Below are positions 24 to 9,068 of a DNA stretch of 9,825 nt, piece after piece. The notes under the pieces are model-generated. The model was not told the origin of the DNA and ran no database searches. It was given only the letters and a program-made list of their open reading frames with translations. Within the stretch, counting starts at the first letter, position 1; each line of letters opens with the position of its first letter. Source of the stretch: Nitrospinota bacterium (lineage in GTDB: Bacteria; Nitrospinota; Nitrospinia; JACRGO01); NCBI GenBank assembly GCA_016212295.1, contig JACRGO010000041.1, positions 1 to 9,825 of the forward strand. The letters run 5' to 3'. Made by a program: the position numbers and the translations under genes.

Positions 24-28
24 TTCAT

Positions 29-226
29 ATGAGAGCCACTGTAACAATAGAGAAAGAAGTGTTGGACACTCTTCAAAAGGAGACAAAAACAAAGAGCAAG
101 ACCTCTGCGGTGAAAGTAGCCATTGATGAATACCTCAGGAAAAAAAAGATCGAAAAAATCAAGTCCATGAAAGGCAAACTGGAGTTTGATATGACCGCGG
201 ATGAGATCAGACATTATGAAAGGTAA
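29..226 (+). CDS. vapB: VapB-type antitoxin (ribbon-helix-helix)
   Basis: This is a 65-residue antitoxin of a type II toxin-antitoxin pair. It would bind and silence the PIN-domain RNase encoded just downstream, and it would autorepress the operon. The first ~38 residues (MRATVTIEKEVLDTLQ... to SAVKVAIDEYLRKKK) have the pattern of a ribbon-helix-helix DNA-binding fold: a short beta strand followed by two amphipathic helices. The lysine-rich, then acidic C-terminus is the usual toxin-binding tail. The length is normal for small VapB proteins. A good Shine-Dalgarno sits 5 nt before the ATG. The stop overlaps the start of the next gene (ATG at 216) by 11 nt, as expected for translational coupling in TA operons. 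Family assignment rests on pattern and context. Because the toxin is broken, the antitoxin may now be an orphan. Confidence 0.8.
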   Translation: MRATVTIEKEVLDTLQKETKTKSKTSAVKVAIDEYLRKKKIEKIKSMKGKLEFDMTADEIRHYER

Positions 227-551
227 AAGGGTTGTTATAGACACATCCGTTTGGATCGACTATTTTAAAGGGGAAAATAAATCCGTAACGGTTCAAATGG
301 ATGATATTCTTATACAGGCTGATGTCTTTGTTCCTAAGGTTATTATCGCTGAGCTGATTCAGGGAGCGAAATCTGAGAAAGAGATTTCAGTGATTGAAGG
401 GTTTTTGGATGCTTTTTTCATCATCGACCAGTCCAAAGATTCCTGGGCAAAGGCGGCCAGGCTTTCCTTTGCAATGAAACGAAAAGGCGCTACCGTATAG
501 TATTGACATATTCATTCTGCAATACCATCTATTTCGAATGAAATAATCAAT
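216..551 (+). pseudogene. vapC: VapC-type PIN-domain toxin, frameshifted and C-terminally truncated
   Basis: The intact frame runs from the ATG at 216 to a TAG at 498-500, giving 94 residues; VapC toxins are usually about 130-140. The N-terminal PIN motif VIDTSVWIDYFKGE (acidic Asp9) and the central motif KVIIAELIQGAKS (Glu46) are present. The third conserved acidic motif, normally (S/T)xDxLIA, is absent from this frame. Just after the stop, in a shifted frame from 499, the sequence reads SIDIFIL, which matches that motif. A frameshift near 495-498 therefore broke the gene. The shifted frame runs only to a TAA at 549-551 and does not resemble the rest of a PIN domain, so the C-terminal strand and helix are lost as well. 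The start at 216 is preferred over 201 because it gives the usual small overlap with vapB and begins MKGKRVVIDT, like other VapC proteins. The product should lack RNase activity. A sequencing error could explain the frameshift but not the missing end. Confidence 0.75.
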
Positions 552-631: not shown

Positions 632-1195
632 ATGAAAAAAATTTCTTCTTCCGAGATATGGGGAACCATCGTTTCTCTTGCCGGCCTGATGGTGATGGCG
701 GGGTGGGTTTGGGATGTTTCCGTTTTGAAAAGCATCCTGCCCCACTGGGTCACCATGAAATTTTCCACCGCGTTTTCCTTCTTCTTGAGCGGAATCATCC
801 TTTTCCTGCTCGCGAGATTCATGAAGGGAGAAGCCCTGGCCCAAATCCTCCTCCTTATTCCTTCCCTGGTCGTCCTTTTTCTCATGGGCACTCTTTTGCT
901 TTCAAGTTTTTCCGATATCCGGACAGGGGTGGAGGATTTATTCATGAGGGAAGCGGAAGGGGCGGCGCGGAGCGTGGCTCCGGGCAGGCCGTCGGTTGTG
1001 ACCATGGTCTGTTTTATTCTTATGTCCGTCACCGGACTGGCGGCGATGCTAGGGGCGCCGGGCCTTAAAAAAATCCTTACAGCGGCCGGGGGTGCCTTGG
1101 TCGGGTTTGGCGGCCTGGCCCTCCTCGGATACCTCCTTCAGGTCCCGGTTTTTTATTCCGCCGTGGAAGGATGGAGCAAGCCATGCTTGATTTGA
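632..1195 (+). CDS. Integral membrane sensor domain protein, probable detached N-terminal half of a sensor kinase
   Basis: A hydrophobic protein of 187 residues from the ATG at 632. An ATG at 596 is in frame but lies within the heptamer tract and adds only polar residues. Hydrophobic segments lie at about residues 10-28, 44-61, 71-91, 122-140 and 148-170. Two stretches look like an internal duplication: ILPHWVTMKFSTAFSFFLSG and GRPSVVTMVCFILMS. This layout is typical of membrane input modules in front of PAS or histidine-kinase domains, where more membrane helices and a linker would normally follow. Here the frame ends at 1195, overlapping the start of a kinase in another frame (possible starts 1171 and 1183). 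Possibilities are a split two-gene sensor, or a kinase disrupted by an internal deletion plus frameshift; I favour the latter. No clear Shine-Dalgarno precedes 632. The ligand is unknown. Confidence 0.6.
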   Translation: MKKISSSEIWGTIVSLAGLMVMAGWVWDVSVLKSILPHWVTMKFSTAFSFFLSGIILFLLARFMKGEALAQILLLIPSLVVLFLMGTLLLSSFSDIRTGVEDLFMREAEGAARSVAPGRPSVVTMVCFILMSVTGLAAMLGAPGLKKILTAAGGALVGFGGLALLGYLLQVPVFYSAVEGWSKPCLI

Positions 1196-1956
1196 AGCGG
1201 TCCAATGAGGACCTGGAACGCTTTGCCTACGTGGCCTCCCACGATCTCCAGGAGCCCTTGCGCATGGTGGTGAGCTATCTGCAACTGCTGGAGCAGCGCT
1301 ACAAGGGAAAACTCGACGTGGACGCCGACGAATTTATCGGCTTCGCAGTTGACGGCGCCAAACGGATGCAGGGTCTTATCAATGGTCTTTTGTCCCTGTC
1401 CCGGATAGCCAGCCGGGGCAAATCCTTTGTATCGGTCGACTGCGGATCCGTCCTCCGGGAAACCCTGGCGAATTTGCAAATGGGAATAGAGGAAAACGGG
1501 GCCGAGGCGACCCATGATAAACTGCCGGAGATCATGGCCGACCCTTCCCAACTCATGCAGCTCTTCCAGAACCTTATTTCCAATTCCATAAAATTTCGGG
1601 GGGAAAGTCCTCCCAAAATCCACATAAAGGCCGAAAGAATCGAAAACTCCAAAATCCGCATCCCTCAATCCGAAATAGATAAAGGTTGGCTTTTTTCCGT
1701 CCAGGACAACGGAATCGGGATTGACCCTCAATTCGCCGGCCGGATTTTCAGCGTCTTCCAACGTCTGCACGGCAAGGAATATCCGGGCGCGGGAATCGGA
1801 CTTTCCATCTGCCGGAAGATCGTGGAGCGCCACGGCGGGAAGATTTGGGTGGAGTCCGAGCCTGAAAAGGGCGCGACGTTTTACTTTACAATACCGGATG
1901 TTCGTGATTCGCGATTCGTGAATCGTGAATCGTGGAGCGGGAATCGTGGTTCGTGA
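1183..1956 (+). CDS. Histidine kinase core (HisKA-HATPase_c) without its own sensor
   Basis: Cytoplasmic kinase core that would autophosphorylate a His and pass the phosphate to a response regulator, probably the Rcp1-like protein at 3575. Counting from the alternative ATG at 1171, the motifs in order are: H-box FAYVASHDLQEPLRMV (His24), N-box LFQNLISNSIKF (Asn138), G1 DNGIGI (Asp179), G2 GAGIGLSI, and the end GKIWVESEPEKGATFYFTIP. It belongs to the phytochrome-type (Cph1-like) kinase group by H-box style. The ATG at 1183 is preferred because GGATGGAG (1169-1176) lies 6 nt upstream; at 1171 the purine run touches the start codon. Either start overlaps the upstream membrane-protein frame and leaves only a stub of the expected coiled-coil linker. 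The last ~18 residues after FTIP are encoded by the heptamer array, whose TGA ends the gene. It is paralogous to the kinase at 1989. Confidence 0.8.
   Translation: MLDLKRSNEDLERFAYVASHDLQEPLRMVVSYLQLLEQRYKGKLDVDADEFIGFAVDGAKRMQGLINGLLSLSRIASRGKSFVSVDCGSVLRETLANLQMGIEENGAEATHDKLPEIMADPSQLMQLFQNLISNSIKFRGESPPKIHIKAERIENSKIRIPQSEIDKGWLFSVQDNGIGIDPQFAGRIFSVFQRLHGKEYPGAGIGLSICRKIVERHGGKIWVESEPEKGATFYFTIPDVRDSRFVNRESWSGNRGS
1816..1898 (+). repeat. 83-bp direct repeat, copy A (kinase 3' end)
   Basis: Aligns without gaps to 3024-3106, with four mismatches counted by eye (about 95% identity). It encodes the end of the ATP-binding domain (KIVERHGG to FTIP). The rest of the two kinase genes is clearly less alike: the H-box regions differ at many silent and coding positions. 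This suggests local gene conversion or duplication of the gene end. Confidence 0.8.
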
Positions 1957-1988: not shown

Positions 1989-3119
1989 ATGATCGATTTT
2001 TTCAGAAATCTGCTGTCATCGGACTCATTCATGCCGCACGGGCATTGTTTTCTGTGGGACCCCGGAGTGTTGTGGCTTACCGTGGCGTCGGACGCCCTTA
2101 TCGCGCTCTCCTATTACGCCATCCCTCTGGTTTTGTTTTTATTCATACGGAAAAAGAAGAATCTGCCGTTTGCCTGGATGTTTTTCCTGTTCTGCGTCTT
2201 CATTCTTCTCTGCGGAACCACGCACGTTTTGGATGTATGGACCGTTTGGGACCCGGCCTATCGGCTTCTGGGTCTGGTGAAGGCCGCCACCGCCTTGGTT
2301 TCCATTGCCACGGCGGTCCTGCTCATTCCCCTTATTCCCAAGGCGCTCGCCTTGAGAAGCCCCGAGGAACTCGAGGCCAAAAACCAGGAATTGCAAAAAG
2401 AAATCGTGGAGCGCGACCGAGTGAAAAAGCTGCTCGACCAATCCAATAAAGAGCTCCAGCAGTTTGCCTATATCGCTTCCCACGATCTTCAGGAGCCCTT
2501 GCGCATGGTCTCAAGCTACGTCCAGTTGCTTCAAAAAAAATACAAGGGGAAATTGGACTCCGACGCGGACGAATACATCGAATTCGCCTCGGATGGGGCA
2601 AGGCGGATGGGCAATTTGATCAACGATTTGCTTGCCTATTCGCGTCTTGAGAGCCAAGCCAAGGAATTCCGCTTGGTTGATGGTGAAAATATATTCAGGA
2701 ATTCACTCCGCGATCTCCAGGCCGCTATCAAGGAAAGCGGAGCTGTCGTGACACACGATCCTCTTCCGCGGGTCATGGGTGATGATGTTCAATTGGAAAG
2801 TCTTTTTCAAAATCTGATTGGAAACGCGATCAAATATAGAGGAAAAAAGACGCCCCAAATACACGTTTCCGTTGAAATGAAGCCAGGGGAATGGGTTTTC
2901 TCGGTCCGCGACAACGGCATAGGGATAGACCCCGGGTATTTTGGCCGCATCTTCGTCATTTTCCAGCGCCTGCACGCGCGCCATGAATATTCCGGCACTG
3001 GCATAGGCTTGGCCGTATGCAAGAAAATCGTGGAGCGCCACGGCGGGAGGATTTGGGTGGAGTCCGAGCCTGGAAAGGGCGCTACGTTTTACTTTACAAT
3101 ACCGGAGGTTGGAGCGTGA
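1989..3119 (+). CDS. Membrane histidine kinase with ethylene-receptor-like (ETR1-type) sensor domain
   Basis: A 376-residue sensor kinase. Residues ~25-118 form three membrane segments that closely match the ethylene-binding domain of plant ETR1 and cyanobacterial SynEtr1 (Slr1212): SDALIALSYYAIPLVLF in helix 1 and FILLCGTTHVLDVWT in helix 2. The key ETR1 residues Asp25, Tyr32, Ile35, Pro36, Cys65 and His69 align with Asp35, Tyr42, Ile45, Pro46, Cys75 and His79, and the Asp-to-Cys distance (40) is identical. The Cys and His are those that hold Cu(I) in ETR1. A coiled coil (~122-158) leads directly, with no GAF or PAS, to HisKA (FAYIASHDLQEPLRM, His165), N-box (Asn279), G1 DNGIGI (Asp308) and G2 GTGIGL (336-341). 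All catalytic motifs are intact. Its neighbour at 3575 is an Rcp1-like regulator, the expected partner. Copper and ethylene binding are inferred from homology. A gene symbol is not assigned. Confidence 0.88.
   Translation: MIDFFRNLLSSDSFMPHGHCFLWDPGVLWLTVASDALIALSYYAIPLVLFLFIRKKKNLPFAWMFFLFCVFILLCGTTHVLDVWTVWDPAYRLLGLVKAATALVSIATAVLLIPLIPKALALRSPEELEAKNQELQKEIVERDRVKKLLDQSNKELQQFAYIASHDLQEPLRMVSSYVQLLQKKYKGKLDSDADEYIEFASDGARRMGNLINDLLAYSRLESQAKEFRLVDGENIFRNSLRDLQAAIKESGAVVTHDPLPRVMGDDVQLESLFQNLIGNAIKYRGKKTPQIHVSVEMKPGEWVFSVRDNGIGIDPGYFGRIFVIFQRLHARHEYSGTGIGLAVCKKIVERHGGRIWVESEPGKGATFYFTIPEVGA
3024..3106 (+). repeat. 83-bp direct repeat, copy B (kinase 3' end)
   Basis: Partner of 1816-1898 (79 of 83 positions identical by eye). 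Shortly after it, at 3115-3132, comes an exact 18-bp copy (cgtgattcggggagcggg) of the end of array 2 (1966-1983). Confidence 0.8.
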
Positions 3120-3500: not shown

Positions 3501-3563
3501 CCACGATCCACGAATCACGATCCACGAATCACGATCCACGAATCACGATCCACGAATCACGGA
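3501..3563. repeat. Phased 7-bp repeat array (array 3), 14-bp dimer unit
   Basis: Nine consecutive heptamers alternate between ccacgaa/ccacgat and tcacgat/tcacgga, so the apparent unit is a 14-mer (ccacgaatcacgat) repeated about four times almost perfectly. Its reverse complement reads (a)ttcgtggatcgtga..., so it belongs to the same family as array 2 but lies in the opposite orientation. It starts just after the IVS-protein stop and ends just before the Shine-Dalgarno of the response regulator. Its homogeneity suggests recent expansion. Confidence 0.85.
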
Positions 3564-3574
3564 AAGGAAAAAAC

Positions 3575-4021
3575 ATGACGCATTTTGAAAAGGCCAATCC
3601 CATTTCGATCCTGTTGGTGGAAGACAACCCCGGAGACGTCCGGCTGACCATGGAGGCCCTCAAGGAGGGCAAGGTGAACAACCGTTTGATTGTGGCCAGG
3701 GACGGAGTGGAGGCCCTTGCCATATTAAGAAAGGAGGGAGAGTTCGCCGAAGCCCCGCACCCGGATTTGATTCTCCTGGATTTGAATCTCCCTAAAAAAG
3801 ACGGACGGGAGGTATTGGCGGAAATCAAGGCCGATGAGAGGCTGAAACGAATCCCGGTGGTGGTCCTCACCACCTCCCAGGCGGAGGAGGACATTTTAAA
3901 AACCTACGATCTCCACGCCAACTGTTTTATCTCCAAGCCCGTGGATATGGACCGGTTCATTCAGGTGGTCAAGGCGACCAGCGAATTCTGGTTCACCATC
4001 GTGAAATTGCCGACGGAATGA
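3575..4021 (+). CDS. Rcp1-like single-domain response regulator
   Basis: A 148-residue stand-alone receiver domain with no output domain, resembling the Rcp1 regulators that pair with cyanobacterial phytochrome kinases. It begins [20 protein letters not shown] (acidic pocket Glu16-Asp17). The phospho-acceptor is Asp69 in [17 protein letters not shown]; the switch Thr is in VVVLTTS (99-100) and the conserved Lys is Lys121 in ISKPVD. The C-terminal [16 protein letters not shown] extension is typical of Rcp1-type proteins. AAAGGAA lies shortly before the ATG. It would receive phosphate from the two phytochrome-style kinases upstream (1183 and 1989) and act by protein contact. Partnership is inferred from gene order and kinase type. 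Confidence 0.9.
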
Positions 4022-4208: not shown

Positions 4209-5693
4209 ATGAAAACTTCAACTTCTTTAAAAATTCTCCTGATCGAAGATAATCCGGGCGACGCCCGGTTGATAAAGGAAATGTGCGTGGAGGCGGAAAA
4301 TCTTTCCTTTGAGATGGATTGGACGGAAAGGCTCTCCGATGCCATAGGCCGCTTGGCTGAAAAAAAATTCGATGTGGTCTTGCTGGACCTTTCCCTTCCC
4401 GACAGCCACGGCTTCGAGACCTTCGCAAAGGCGCGGGACTCCGCTCCTAATGTCCCCATCGTGATTTTGAGCGGCCTGGATGATCAAGCCCTGGCCATGA
4501 AGGCGGTGCAGGCCGGAGCCCAGGACTATCTGGTCAAGGGCCAGGTGAGTTCCATGATTGTTGCGCGGGTCATCCGGTACGCCATGGAAAGAAAAAAGAT
4601 TGAAGAATCCTTGCGCAAGGCCAAAGTGGAGGCGGAAGAGGCCAACAAGCTCAAGGACAAATTTCTCGCCCTGGTGTCCCATGATCTGAAAGGTCCACTC
4701 ACCTCCATCATGGGTTTTATAGAGCTGATCCGCCAGGACCTTCAGGAGTTCGGCGTCCCCGAAAAGGTCTTGGAAATACTGGATATAGTCCACAATTCCA
4801 CGAAGAAGATGCATTTTCAGATCGATGACTTGTTGAATCTCTCCCGGCTACGGGCGGGAAAGATCACCCCGAAACTTAAGTTTTTCGACGTGTCCGGCAT
4901 GATTCTGGATGCCTTGGAAGGCATTAAATTTCTTGCGCGGAAAAAAGAGATCGATGTGGTTAATAAAGTCCCGGACCATACGCGGGTTTACGCGGACCCG
5001 ACGCTTTTTTTCGAGGTCATCCAGAACCTTGTGACCAATGCCATCAAGTTCTGCCGTAAAGGAGACCAAGTCACGATTTTTCTCCCGGAAAACGAGCGCT
5101 CCACCATTGCCGTGGCCGATACTGGAACTGGCATCAAGCCGGAATTAGTGAAAAATATTTTTAACTATCTTATAAGGACAACCACGACGGGGACTGCTGG
5201 AGAAATCGGAACCGGGCTTGGCTTGCCCTTTTCGCGGGACATCATGGAGGCGCACGGCGGGGCGTTGCGGGTGGAGTCTGCGGAAGGAAAGGGAAGCGTC
5301 TTTTACGCCGCGTTGCCCTGTGTGAAGCCGGGTATTTTGCTGGTGGAAGACGAGTTGGAAGATATGATCTTATTTAAAAAACATTTGGAAAAACTGGACG
5401 TGGACATTTTCGCGGCGGAAAATGGACAGGAGGCCATGAAAATTCTTGAAGAAAACAGCATTCATTTGATCATAGCCGATATCCGGATGCCGCTCATGGA
5501 CGGCTTTGAACTTCTTCAAAACATTAAAAAAATTTCTGAAACAAACCCCATTCCCGTTATCCTGGTTACGGGAAAAGCCCAGGAAACAAGGGAATATGCC
5601 TTTAAACTAGGGGCCGTGGATTTTATTACCAAGCCGGTGGATTTTGAAAAACTTCTTCAAAAGATCAGAAAGTTTTTATATGAAACAATTTGA
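4209..5693 (+). CDS. Soluble hybrid histidine kinase, REC-HisKA-HATPase_c-REC
   Basis: A 494-residue cytoplasmic protein with no membrane segment. Domains in order: an N-terminal receiver (~7-125; Glu13-Asp14, phospho-acceptor Asp60 in VVLLDLSLP, Lys110 in YLVKG); a short coiled coil (~126-150); HisKA (FLALVSHDLKGPLTS, His158); HATPase_c (N-box IQNLVTNAIKF with Asn277, G1 DTGTGI at 304-309, G2 GTGLGL 334-339); and a C-terminal receiver (~375-494; Glu380-Asp381, Asp424 in IIADIRMPLMDG, Lys475 in ITKPVD). All active residues are present. It is probably driven by phosphorylation of its first receiver by an upstream kinase and passes phosphate through the second, a relay that would need a separate phosphotransfer protein not seen here. 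ATG 4209 fits the start of the receiver fold; there is no clear Shine-Dalgarno. It follows the kinase/Rcp1 cluster in the same orientation after a repeat-rich spacer. Confidence 0.9.
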   Translation: MKTSTSLKILLIEDNPGDARLIKEMCVEAENLSFEMDWTERLSDAIGRLAEKKFDVVLLDLSLPDSHGFETFAKARDSAPNVPIVILSGLDDQALAMKAVQAGAQDYLVKGQVSSMIVARVIRYAMERKKIEESLRKAKVEAEEANKLKDKFLALVSHDLKGPLTSIMGFIELIRQDLQEFGVPEKVLEILDIVHNSTKKMHFQIDDLLNLSRLRAGKITPKLKFFDVSGMILDALEGIKFLARKKEIDVVNKVPDHTRVYADPTLFFEVIQNLVTNAIKFCRKGDQVTIFLPENERSTIAVADTGTGIKPELVKNIFNYLIRTTTTGTAGEIGTGLGLPFSRDIMEAHGGALRVESAEGKGSVFYAALPCVKPGILLVEDELEDMILFKKHLEKLDVDIFAAENGQEAMKILEENSIHLIIADIRMPLMDGFELLQNIKKISETNPIPVILVTGKAQETREYAFKLGAVDFITKPVDFEKLLQKIRKFLYETI

Positions 5694-5776: not shown

Positions 5777-6058
5777 ATGGATTTTGATTGCTGTAAATTT
5801 TTTAAGGCAGTGGCGGATCCCAGCAGGATAAAAATAATGATGCTGCTGATGAAAGGGGAGATGTGCGTCTCTGATATATGCCAGCATTTTCACATGAAAC
5901 AGCCCTCCATCTCCCATCACCTTAATATATTGAAGAACGCGAAGATCGTGTCCGACCGCAAGGAGGGCAAGGAAGTGTATTACTCCTTGAATTCCTGCTG
6001 CATAGATTCCTGTTGCAGTGAGTTCATGCAAAGATTCAGAGGCAGGCCAAAGGCATAG
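5777..6058 (+). CDS. ArsR/SmtB-family metal(loid)-responsive repressor, Cys-rich
   Basis: A 93-residue winged-helix repressor. It starts FFKAVADPSRIKIMMLLMKGEMCVSDI, the standard ArsR helix 1 to helix 3 region. The recognition helix is KQPSISHHLNILKNA (~41-55) and the wing is DRKEGKEVYYSL (~60-71). It has eight Cys: Cys5-Cys6, Cys30, Cys35, Cys74-Cys75 and Cys79-Cys80. The classical arsenic site in helix 3 is CVC; here that region has a single Cys30 with Cys35 further on, and the doublets at both ends (DFDCCKFF, SCCIDSCCSEF) could form a different thiolate site for As(III), Sb(III) or a soft metal. It would leave DNA on ligand binding. It has its own strong promoter upstream, no evident Shine-Dalgarno, and is followed by a half-site cluster and a Cys-rich small ORF. 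The ligand cannot be named from sequence. Confidence 0.9.
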   Translation: MDFDCCKFFKAVADPSRIKIMMLLMKGEMCVSDICQHFHMKQPSISHHLNILKNAKIVSDRKEGKEVYYSLNSCCIDSCCSEFMQRFRGRPKA

Positions 6059-6437: not shown

Positions 6438-7052
6438 TCAAGAATAATCCAGTTCCCCCACTGTGGCAACCTGCCTGTATTTCACACCCTGAAACTCCTT
6501 GAAGTGCGCATGTCCGCATTTTATTTTTCTCTTTTCGCTTGCCCTTAGTTCCTGCCCCGCCGATTTCGTCTCCGCCACGAAATAGACGGTCTTTTCGTTC
6601 TTTTTGATCAAGGCCCAGTCCGGGTTGTAGTTTCCGATAGGCGTTTTGATCCTGAACCAGAAAGGAAGTTTGAAATAAAACTCGATATCATCCCTGCTCT
6701 CGCACTCCCTGGCAAACTGGTATTCCACATTGGAATCCAGGGGAAGGAGATTTCCATGAATGGTTTTGTCTTTTTTGGAAATGGCAAAGGTCAAGTCGTT
6801 GACGTGAACCTCATAATCATCAAAAAGGCGCATCTCGTACCCTTTTCCGCCGATCTTTTCGTATTTGATCCCGTCGATCATGAAATCCACCAAGACATCC
6901 TTGATGGCACCGACCGCATAATCCAGAAAGAGCTGGGGATTTATCAATACGTCGCAGATCCTCCCGGACTCCTTGAGAATTTTCAAAATGGTGGAGCGCG
7001 TCAGTTCCGTTCTTTCCTGAATATAAAACAGGATATCGGGTATCCTGAACAT
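6438..7052 (-). CDS. Type III restriction enzyme Res, C-terminal endonuclease part (after in-frame TAG)
   Basis: 204 residues in the same frame as the upstream Res helicase, separated from it by TAG (7064-7062) and three codons. It starts MFRIPDILFYIQERTELTRSTI, which in intact Res proteins is internal and follows the helicase region. MVDGIKYEKIGG-like text (FMIDGIKYEKIGGKGYEMRLF, ~57-77) is the usual linker. The nuclease core is PD-(D/E)xK: NYNPDWALI (Pro144-Asp145) and VYFVAETKSA (Glu161, Lys163), catalytic residues intact. It would cut DNA after translocation stalls. ATG 7052 has GGAGG only 2 nt upstream, a poor spacing, so separate translation may be weak. Either res is a pseudogene by nonsense mutation, or the domains are now made as two chains. 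TAG is used as an ordinary stop elsewhere in the window (ArsR, IVS protein), so general suppression is unlikely. Confidence 0.8.
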   Translation of the reverse strand: MFRIPDILFYIQERTELTRSTILKILKESGRICDVLINPQLFLDYAVGAIKDVLVDFMIDGIKYEKIGGKGYEMRLFDDYEVHVNDLTFAISKKDKTIHGNLLPLDSNVEYQFARECESRDDIEFYFKLPFWFRIKTPIGNYNPDWALIKKNEKTVYFVAETKSAGQELRASEKRKIKCGHAHFKEFQGVKYRQVATVGELDYS

Positions 7053-7061
7053 TCCCTCCAG

Positions 7062-9068
7062 CTAAGAAATGCTGGATGCCTGGATATCCGCCACGATCCC
7101 CACATCGCCAAACTCCAGGGCCGTCTTGGTGGTCTTGATGACGGCCCTCCTGATTACCGGCATCTCTCTCACCGCCCTGGCCGCCTTGCGTATCAACTCC
7201 TGGGTGTCATATTCCACCCGGTACGTGGTCTCATGTTTGATCCTGTCCCAGATTGCCTTGAATTTTCCGTCCAGTTCAAAACCCTTCTTGTACCTGGCCC
7301 ATTCCCTTTTCCGCTTGTTTTTGATCCGTCCCTGGAAGGAGACCCCGCAATCCTCTTCAATCTCGCTTTGAAGCTGGCGTGCAAATTCCTCATAGGACTC
7401 GTTGGCGACCACTGTCAAACGATTGATATGAGTATCCTGGATGCGGTTTCCTTCTTGGTTCACGGCAAGCCTTAATCCCCGCCCTATCTCCTGCCGCTTT
7501 TTCAATTCCGACCGCGTTTCGTTTAGCGTGCATATCTGAAAGACGTTGGGGTTGTCCCATCCCTCCCGCAGGGCGGAATGGCTGAATATGAAACGCAAGG
7601 GCTCCCCGATATCCAGGAGCCGTTCCTTGTCTTTCATGATCAGTTTAAAAGTATCGTCATCCACCTGGGTGTTTCCCTTGGTGTCCTTCCACTTGCCCTT
7701 ATTGTCCTGGGAAAAGTACCCGTTATGGATCTCGTCCACTGGAAAAGGAATGACGCCCCGGAAATCTGGTTTCTTGGAAATCTCTTTAAATGCATCCTCG
7801 AACCATTGGAAAAACTTGCCCTTCACGGGATGGCCGTCTGCATCATAGCCCCGGTAGTTGGCCACGCGGTCTATAAAAAAGAGGGAAAGGACCTTGATCC
7901 CCTTTTCCTTCAATCTCTTCTCCTTCAAAAAATGCTCCTCCACCGTTTTTCTGATCTGGATTTTCATCACCGCGTCGGTCAATCCGCCAAGGGTGTCTCC
8001 CACAAAGACCCTTTCCCCGTTGGAGAGTTCCACAAACCCTTCCGACACATCGATCCCGTTGATGATATACCCGTCCTTATAGATCTCCCTTTTGCCCGAC
8101 AATTTGTACAGGTCGTCGCCCACCCTGGCGGTGACGGATTTTCTCAAGGCCCCTTCCTTGGCATTCACGTCAATCCTGATTTTGGCCGAGGTGCGGGTCT
8201 TGGTGGCGTTCACCTTTTCCAGAGAGACGAAGGCCTCGTTGAAGTCATTTTCCGTGACAATGGAATCCACTTCTATCTGCTTCACCAGTCCAAGGTCGTA
8301 GGCCCTTACAGGATCAAGACTGTAAACCATGTTGTAACGGCGGATATGAGTGGCCGAATAGCGCAGGGTGCACAGAGGGTCCAGTCCCTCCACCGCCTTT
8401 TTCCGGATGTCCGTTTCCATGTTCTGCGGCTCATCCACGATCACGATGGGGCGGGTGGCTCGAATAAACTCCATGGGCCGCTTGCCCGTGAGCTTGTCAT
8501 TGGGCTTGTTGATGATATTTTCGTCTTTGGCGAAGGAATCGATATTGATAACGAGGATTTGGACAGTGTTGCCCAGGGCGAAGTTCCTTAAAGAGGAGAC
8601 CCGCTTGGAATCATACACCTCGAAGTTCACCGGGACCTTGTCGTAAAGGTTCTGAAAATGCGCGAAGGTGATTTCAAGGTTCTTCAGGACGCCCTCCCGG
8701 ATGGCGATGGAAGGAACCACGATGACGAATTTCTTAAAACCGTAATTTTTGTGAAGCCCATAAATGGTCCGGAGGTACACATAGGTCTTGCCGGTCCCGG
8801 TTTCCATGTCCACGGAAAAGTGCATTCCATCCAGGGCATCCGAAGCGGGCAATTCGTTCTTCTCCTGGACGGCGCGGAGGTTTTTCAGTATCTGCTCTTC
8901 TCCGATGGCCAAGGCGTTTCCCACTCCTCCCTCCGAATGATAGTAATGCGCATGATGCAGGGAAAAGCTGAAATCGCCGTGATTCAAAGGCTGGCCCTCA
9001 AAGACGCCCACGACTGAGGCTATGGCGTCAAGCTGATAAGGCTGGTTGGGATCGAAATGGAGTTTCAT
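7062..9068 (-). CDS. res: Type III restriction enzyme Res subunit, helicase part
   Basis: 668 residues of an SF2 ATPase/translocase. Motifs: N-terminal FDPNQPYQLDAIASVVGVFEG (Q-motif region), Walker A METGTGKT (88-95), the DEPQ form of motif II (VDEPQ, 211-215), SAT (238-240), motif V REGWDNPNVFQI (501-512), and motif VI RQEIGRGLRL (525-534). The DEPQ box and the REGWDNP motif are typical of Type III Res and related proteins. The frame stops at TAG 7064-7062, after ADIQASSIS, just before where the endonuclease domain should begin; that domain follows in the same frame (6438-7052). Helicase plus the downstream part gives about 876 residues, a normal full Res length. The start overlaps the stop of the upstream gene by 4 nt (ATGA), so they are translationally coupled. 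The Mod partner needed for restriction is not in the window. Confidence 0.9.
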   Translation of the reverse strand: MKLHFDPNQPYQLDAIASVVGVFEGQPLNHGDFSFSLHHAHYYHSEGGVGNALAIGEEQILKNLRAVQEKNELPASDALDGMHFSVDMETGTGKTYVYLRTIYGLHKNYGFKKFVIVVPSIAIREGVLKNLEITFAHFQNLYDKVPVNFEVYDSKRVSSLRNFALGNTVQILVINIDSFAKDENIINKPNDKLTGKRPMEFIRATRPIVIVDEPQNMETDIRKKAVEGLDPLCTLRYSATHIRRYNMVYSLDPVRAYDLGLVKQIEVDSIVTENDFNEAFVSLEKVNATKTRTSAKIRIDVNAKEGALRKSVTARVGDDLYKLSGKREIYKDGYIINGIDVSEGFVELSNGERVFVGDTLGGLTDAVMKIQIRKTVEEHFLKEKRLKEKGIKVLSLFFIDRVANYRGYDADGHPVKGKFFQWFEDAFKEISKKPDFRGVIPFPVDEIHNGYFSQDNKGKWKDTKGNTQVDDDTFKLIMKDKERLLDIGEPLRFIFSHSALREGWDNPNVFQICTLNETRSELKKRQEIGRGLRLAVNQEGNRIQDTHINRLTVVANESYEEFARQLQSEIEEDCGVSFQGRIKNKRKREWARYKKGFELDGKFKAIWDRIKHETTYRVEYDTQELIRKAARAVREMPVIRRAVIKTTKTALEFGDVGIVADIQASSIS

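Follow-up and report, generated by a model that had tools for sequence, protein, structure and literature searches.

In the plant receptor AtETR1, the residues required for ethylene binding are D25, Y32, I35, P36, I62, C65, and H69, a list that reportedly originates with Wang et al. in 2006. Two papers confirm the list in part (PMC6586836, PMC8879215). Among bacteria, SynEtr1 (Slr1212) of Synechocystis is a functional ethylene receptor (PMC6682694), in which the ethylene-binding domain (EBD) is followed, by description, by a histidine kinase. In Azospirillum brasilense, residues 1-130 of AzoEtr1 showed saturable 14C-ethylene binding when expressed in Pichia; the AzoEtr1 gene is followed by one for an output-less regulator, AzoRR-etr1, and D35, C75, H79, and K98 are the residues named in the receptor (PMC11819568).

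The window analyzed here is the whole 9,825-nucleotide stretch of a Nitrospinota contig (JACRGO010000041.1) that carries an EBD kinase gene; the source genome (G000) comprises 3.74 Mb in 237 contigs and is 90.5% complete. With the AzoEtr1 sequence of A. brasilense Sp7 read from plasmid NZ_CP012915, the two EBDs align without gaps over 129 residues at 48% identity, the four named residues carry identical numbers in both proteins, and the partner gene of AzoEtr1, like the likely partner gene here, encodes a stand-alone regulator lacking an output domain. The systems differ in the PAS domain and AHEMSQPL-type kinase of AzoEtr1, in its location on a large plasmid, and in the regulators, AzoRR-etr1 being only 27% identical to that of the window. 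SynEtr1 differs, by description, in its cyanobacteriochrome and in signaling to Slr1213, which enhances small RNA transcription. The Cph1/Rcp1 and CphA/RcpA pairs share the Rcp1-type regulator, and the kinase half of the window protein resembles bacteriophytochrome kinases in a PDB sequence search; the input of those pairs, however, is a phytochrome rather than an EBD.

Domain Layout and Binding-Site Residues of the Window Kinase

The kinase gene reads as one intact frame from ATG to stop (Table 1). The Pfam profile ETR1_N (PF25487) matches its product with E = 1.4e-38 and 131.5 bits against a curated cut-off of 27, residues 27-122 aligning to almost the entire profile (positions 2-97 of 97). 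A profile search had been named in advance as a check that might place the membrane domain in another family; instead, the domain falls in ETR1_N at a level far beyond chance, which bears out the original prediction of an ethylene-receptor-like sensor kinase. HisKA and HATPase_c are the remaining Pfam domains of the protein. Neither GAF nor PAS was detected in it by Pfam, in agreement with the predicted lack of a GAF domain, and the kinase departs from plant-type receptors (ETR/ERS) both in having no GAF domain after the EBD and in lacking Glu at ETR1 position 38. The H, N, G1, and G2 boxes are intact (H165, N box at 275-284, DNGIGID at 308, and GTGIGL at 336), and the kinase is of the FAY[IV]ASHD[LM][QK]EPLR type.

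Table 1. Features of the window, with coordinates in the window or residues in the EBD kinase
Feature	Position	Strand	Basis or remark
VapB-like antitoxin and PIN-domain toxin pair	26-500		Contig start
Second histidine kinase core (HisKA + HATPase_c)	1171..1956	+	Pfam
EBD sensor histidine kinase, 376 aa	1989..3119	+	EBD, coiled coil, HisKA, HATPase_c
Three-helix membrane EBD of this kinase	about residues 25-112		
ETR1_N ethylene-binding domain	2067..2354	+	Pfam, alignment, model
HisKA of this kinase	residues 156-222		Pfam; H165
HATPase_c of this kinase	residues 264-373		Pfam
Four-helix-bundle protein (23S rRNA IVP family), 119 aa	3135..3494	+	Between kinase and regulator
Stand-alone Rcp1-type response regulator, 148 aa	3575..4021	+	phmmer; likely phosphotransfer partner
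REC-HisKA-HATPase_c-REC hybrid kinase	4209..5693	+	Pfam
ArsR/SmtB-family metalloregulator	5777-6058		Cys pairs at both ends (DCC, SCC...SCC); adjoins signaling genes
Type III restriction Res gene, two frames	7062-9068 and 6438-7052	-	NF012027

The arrangement of an EBD joined through a coiled coil to HisKA and HATPase_c had been described as minimal. The layout is indeed present, but it is not unique, because two other proteins without a GAF domain share it: one from Sandaracinaceae MED-G138 (Myxococcota; L009), with a 57% identical EBD, and one from Breoghania (Alphaproteobacteria; L080), with a 43% identical EBD. The former is the nearest neighbor of the window EBD by path in the tree and has a receiver gene 63 bp downstream, although that receiver is only 33% identical to the window regulator.

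To compare individual positions, the window EBD was aligned with 82 other bacterial EBDs and AtETR1 (84 rows). The window EBD contains D35-x6-Y42-x2-I45-P46, C75-x3-H79, and LCGTTHVLDVWT, and the ETR1 pattern with its Asp-to-Cys spacing of 40 is exactly as first described. The equivalents of all seven AtETR1 residues are present (D35, Y42, I45, P46, I72, C75, and H79), and K98 corresponds to the output lysine (K91 of ETR1, K98 of AzoEtr1). The full set of seven is kept in 71 of the 84 rows, and no feature of the bacterial EBDs is better conserved than the Cu(I) ligands (C in 82 of 83, H in all 83). The replacement of ETR1 Glu38 by Val48 had also been pointed out; the residue call is correct, but Val48 is no anomaly, since Glu occurs at this position in none of the 83 bacterial EBDs (A 35, M 16, T 8, V 6, L 6, S 5, I 5), which rules the substitution out as a functional hint. 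At another position, that of P36, eight loci have Ala but keep the other site residues; they comprise a clade formed by Nodosilinea and its relatives and, apart from it, a Nitrospinia genome.

Residues 1-150 were modeled with AlphaFold2 on a 60-row alignment; the model has a mean pLDDT of 90.7 and helices at 25-55, 62-87, 91-112, and 125-149. The first three are predicted to be the three membrane helices that characterize the EBD family, and the fourth is modeled as a long helix running into the kinase. D35, Y42, I45, and P46 lie on modeled helix 1, F71, I72, C75, and H79 on helix 2, and K98 on helix 3. A Foldseek comparison of the EBD model with the PDB gave no match at E <= 0.001, the VIA-align rows were unrelated helical bundles with common helical arrangements, and the PDB sequence search returned no solved structure with sequence kinship to the EBD.

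The EBD encoded in the window is intact and retains all residues known for ethylene and copper binding, and an Rcp1-type regulator is encoded two genes downstream. Judged by its sequence, the protein is a complete, probably functional kinase of the ethylene-receptor type, whose EBD may bind ethylene. The observation behind the original prediction is confirmed, and its interpretation as a whole is supported in part.

The Rcp1-Type Regulator and Neighboring Genes

The regulator at 3575 had been called Rcp1-like, and phmmer searches of the PDB agree: this stand-alone receiver is nearest to RcpA (1k68, 5e-49) and Rcp1 (1i3c/1jlk, 3e-44), and its motifs include the phospho-acceptor D69 together with T100 and K121. 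The proposal that the EBD kinase signals to it is supported to the extent that the regulator is a likely partner, with similar neighbors in several related loci. Among 80 EBD-kinase loci surveyed, seven have a close Rcp1-like gene that starts no more than about 150 bp past the kinase stop, namely three from Okeania, three from Asticcacaulis, and one from another proteobacterium, and all seven kinases are of the same type as that of the window. An Rcp1-like neighbor accompanies six of the eight kinases with the motif SHD[LM][QR]EPLR and 1 of the 72 without it, the exception reading DLKEPLR. Only about three independent pairing events are represented, because the Okeania and Asticcacaulis loci are three near relatives each. 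In contrast to these tight pairs, kinase and regulator are separated in the window by about 455 bp containing one gene and a repeat; because the 119-aa gene and the repeat intervene, their pairing is a proposal and co-transcription only a possibility.

The intervening four-helix-bundle gene is probably a bystander. The kinase core that adjoins upstream shares 59% identity with the catalytic half of the EBD protein, and both kinases may thus signal to the one regulator, with the upstream core as a possible co-input; the hybrid kinase is a possible further member of the signaling cluster.

Several other features surround these genes. The upstream gene (596-1956) looks broken, by an internal deletion or an assembly fault. 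In the congener G001, a 1207-aa frame includes a domain that is 53% identical to the membrane domain of this gene (596-1195). In the window, the reading frame ends at GWS, short of the last membrane helix, and the kinase resumes in another frame at 1171. Arrays of a 7-base unit at 1902-1985 and 3501-3561 (TCGTGAA, and CACGATCCACGAAT in the opposite orientation) lie on either side of the EBD kinase and the four-helix gene. The array at 1902-1985 extends into the C-terminus of the upstream kinase, and a 14-base tandem repeat (3502-3561) separates the four-helix gene from the regulator. For a related 19-base pattern, the genome gave 24 matches, spread over six contigs, and the reversed control gave none. 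The Res gene (6438-9068) is probably broken or partly deleted, because its pieces match separate stretches of NF012027 (profile positions 1-589 and 860-958).

Proposed Mechanism and Alternative Readings

The best explanation of the locus, and in our judgment a likely one, is that the window protein is a membrane histidine kinase of the ethylene-receptor type that signals to the regulator at 3575. For this system we infer copper, ethylene, the direction of the signal, and the partner. The kinase would form a dimer with one Cu(I) per subunit, held by C75 and H79, and ethylene or a similar small olefin would bind this copper. The signal would then pass from the polar link between D35 and K98 through helix 3 and the coiled coil and, because no GAF or PAS domain lies between, would reach the kinase directly. 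Ligand binding would alter autophosphorylation of H165, by analogy lowering it, and phosphotransfer to D69 of the regulator. Having no output domain, this regulator would work through contact with other proteins, in the manner of Rcp1 or AzoRR-etr1. The genome also encodes a copper P-type ATPase, an enzyme that is nearly universal. Against the proposed reading weigh the patchy occurrence of the EBD in the phylum and, weakly, the outcome of a search for ACC deaminase: none was found in the genome, although the control genomes likewise never reached the cut-off, and no further signs of ethylene metabolism were seen.

A second EBD kinase is encoded in the same genome (C142:5573-6889, L086:5573-6889; L002), a 438-aa EBD-HisKA-HATPase_c protein with an ETR1_N match of 1.1e-29. 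Its residues at the seven ethylene sites are E, F, I, S, I, C, and H: Glu replaces Asp, Phe replaces Tyr, and Ser replaces Pro, and the Cys and His copper ligands and the lysine are kept. A His/Cys-rich ORF about 1.1 kb upstream has a weak CopL-family match that is below the cut-off (E 9e-4), and no regulator gene directly follows the kinase. Judging from these residues, the paralogue may be either a sensor of copper or a receptor that has degenerated.

The paralogue bears on the possibility that the window kinase itself is a Cu(I) sensor built on the EBD fold, in which Cys75 and His79 would register Cu(I) in the periplasm or membrane and ethylene would have no natural role. That the Cu(I) ligands are the best conserved residues of the family, that the paralogue retains Cys, His, and Lys without D, Y, and P and lies near the weak CopL match, and that full-length ETR1 becomes more rigid on loading with Cu(I) alone (PMC12643061) are all consistent with such a role. 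It is nevertheless unlikely, as the window EBD also keeps the pocket residues D, Y, I, P, and I, which are not obviously needed for pure copper sensing, the characterized bacterial members respond to ethylene, and no copper gene lies within the window; copper specificity is not known for the ArsR-type regulator at 5777. Also unlikely is a division of labor in which the window kinase would be a genuine receptor for ethylene (or an olefin) and the paralogue would sense copper; if true, these split roles would make plain copper sensing a further, perhaps ancestral, function of the ethylene-receptor fold.

A receptor role for some other Cu(I)-binding gas or small unsaturated compound would be compatible with established chemistry, as Cu(I) binds olefins, acetylene, and CO. 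We know of no plant association in Nitrospinota, the source organism included, and EBD kinases are often found in methanotrophs and in further bacteria that are not tied to plants. The pocket, however, contains the full set of ethylene residues without exception, and the sequence gives no sign of another ligand, so we regard this reading as improbable. That the protein is a relic, an EBD kinase that was acquired and serves no ligand-driven function, would fit the patchy occurrence of ETR1_N (3 of 77 genomes of the phylum) and the broken appearance of the upstream gene but is highly improbable for an ORF that is intact and in frame from end to end with all ligand and kinase motifs kept.

Distribution and Significance

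EBD kinases are spread over at least eight phyla, with named relatives in Cyanobacteriota, Pseudomonadota (many of them methanotrophs), Planctomycetota, Verrucomicrobiota, Bacteroidota, Myxococcota, Acidobacteriota, and Nitrospinota. ETR1_N was not found in G001, the sole congener examined. In the tree of 84 EBDs, the window row belongs to no starred grouping, and for this reason no donor or transfer can be named; matches in viral contigs are limited to the kinase half of the protein. A limited search of the open literature returned no report of the EBD kinase family in Nitrospinota. EBD kinases are frequent in methanotrophs, with 17 loci from Methylomonas, Methylobacter, and their kin; methanotrophs are governed by copper supply.

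The ethylene-receptor-type kinases are extended by this locus to Nitrospinota, in about the smallest layout, with the binding domain joined straight to the kinase. The window kinase is a good, otherwise ordinary addition to a known receptor family, and if binding is confirmed it would be a further bacterial receptor rather than a new principle. Its value lies in the study of how copper and ethylene may drive a kinase with neither GAF nor PAS in between, and the paralogue, with its altered pocket and intact copper ligands, offers a natural test of ethylene versus copper sensing.
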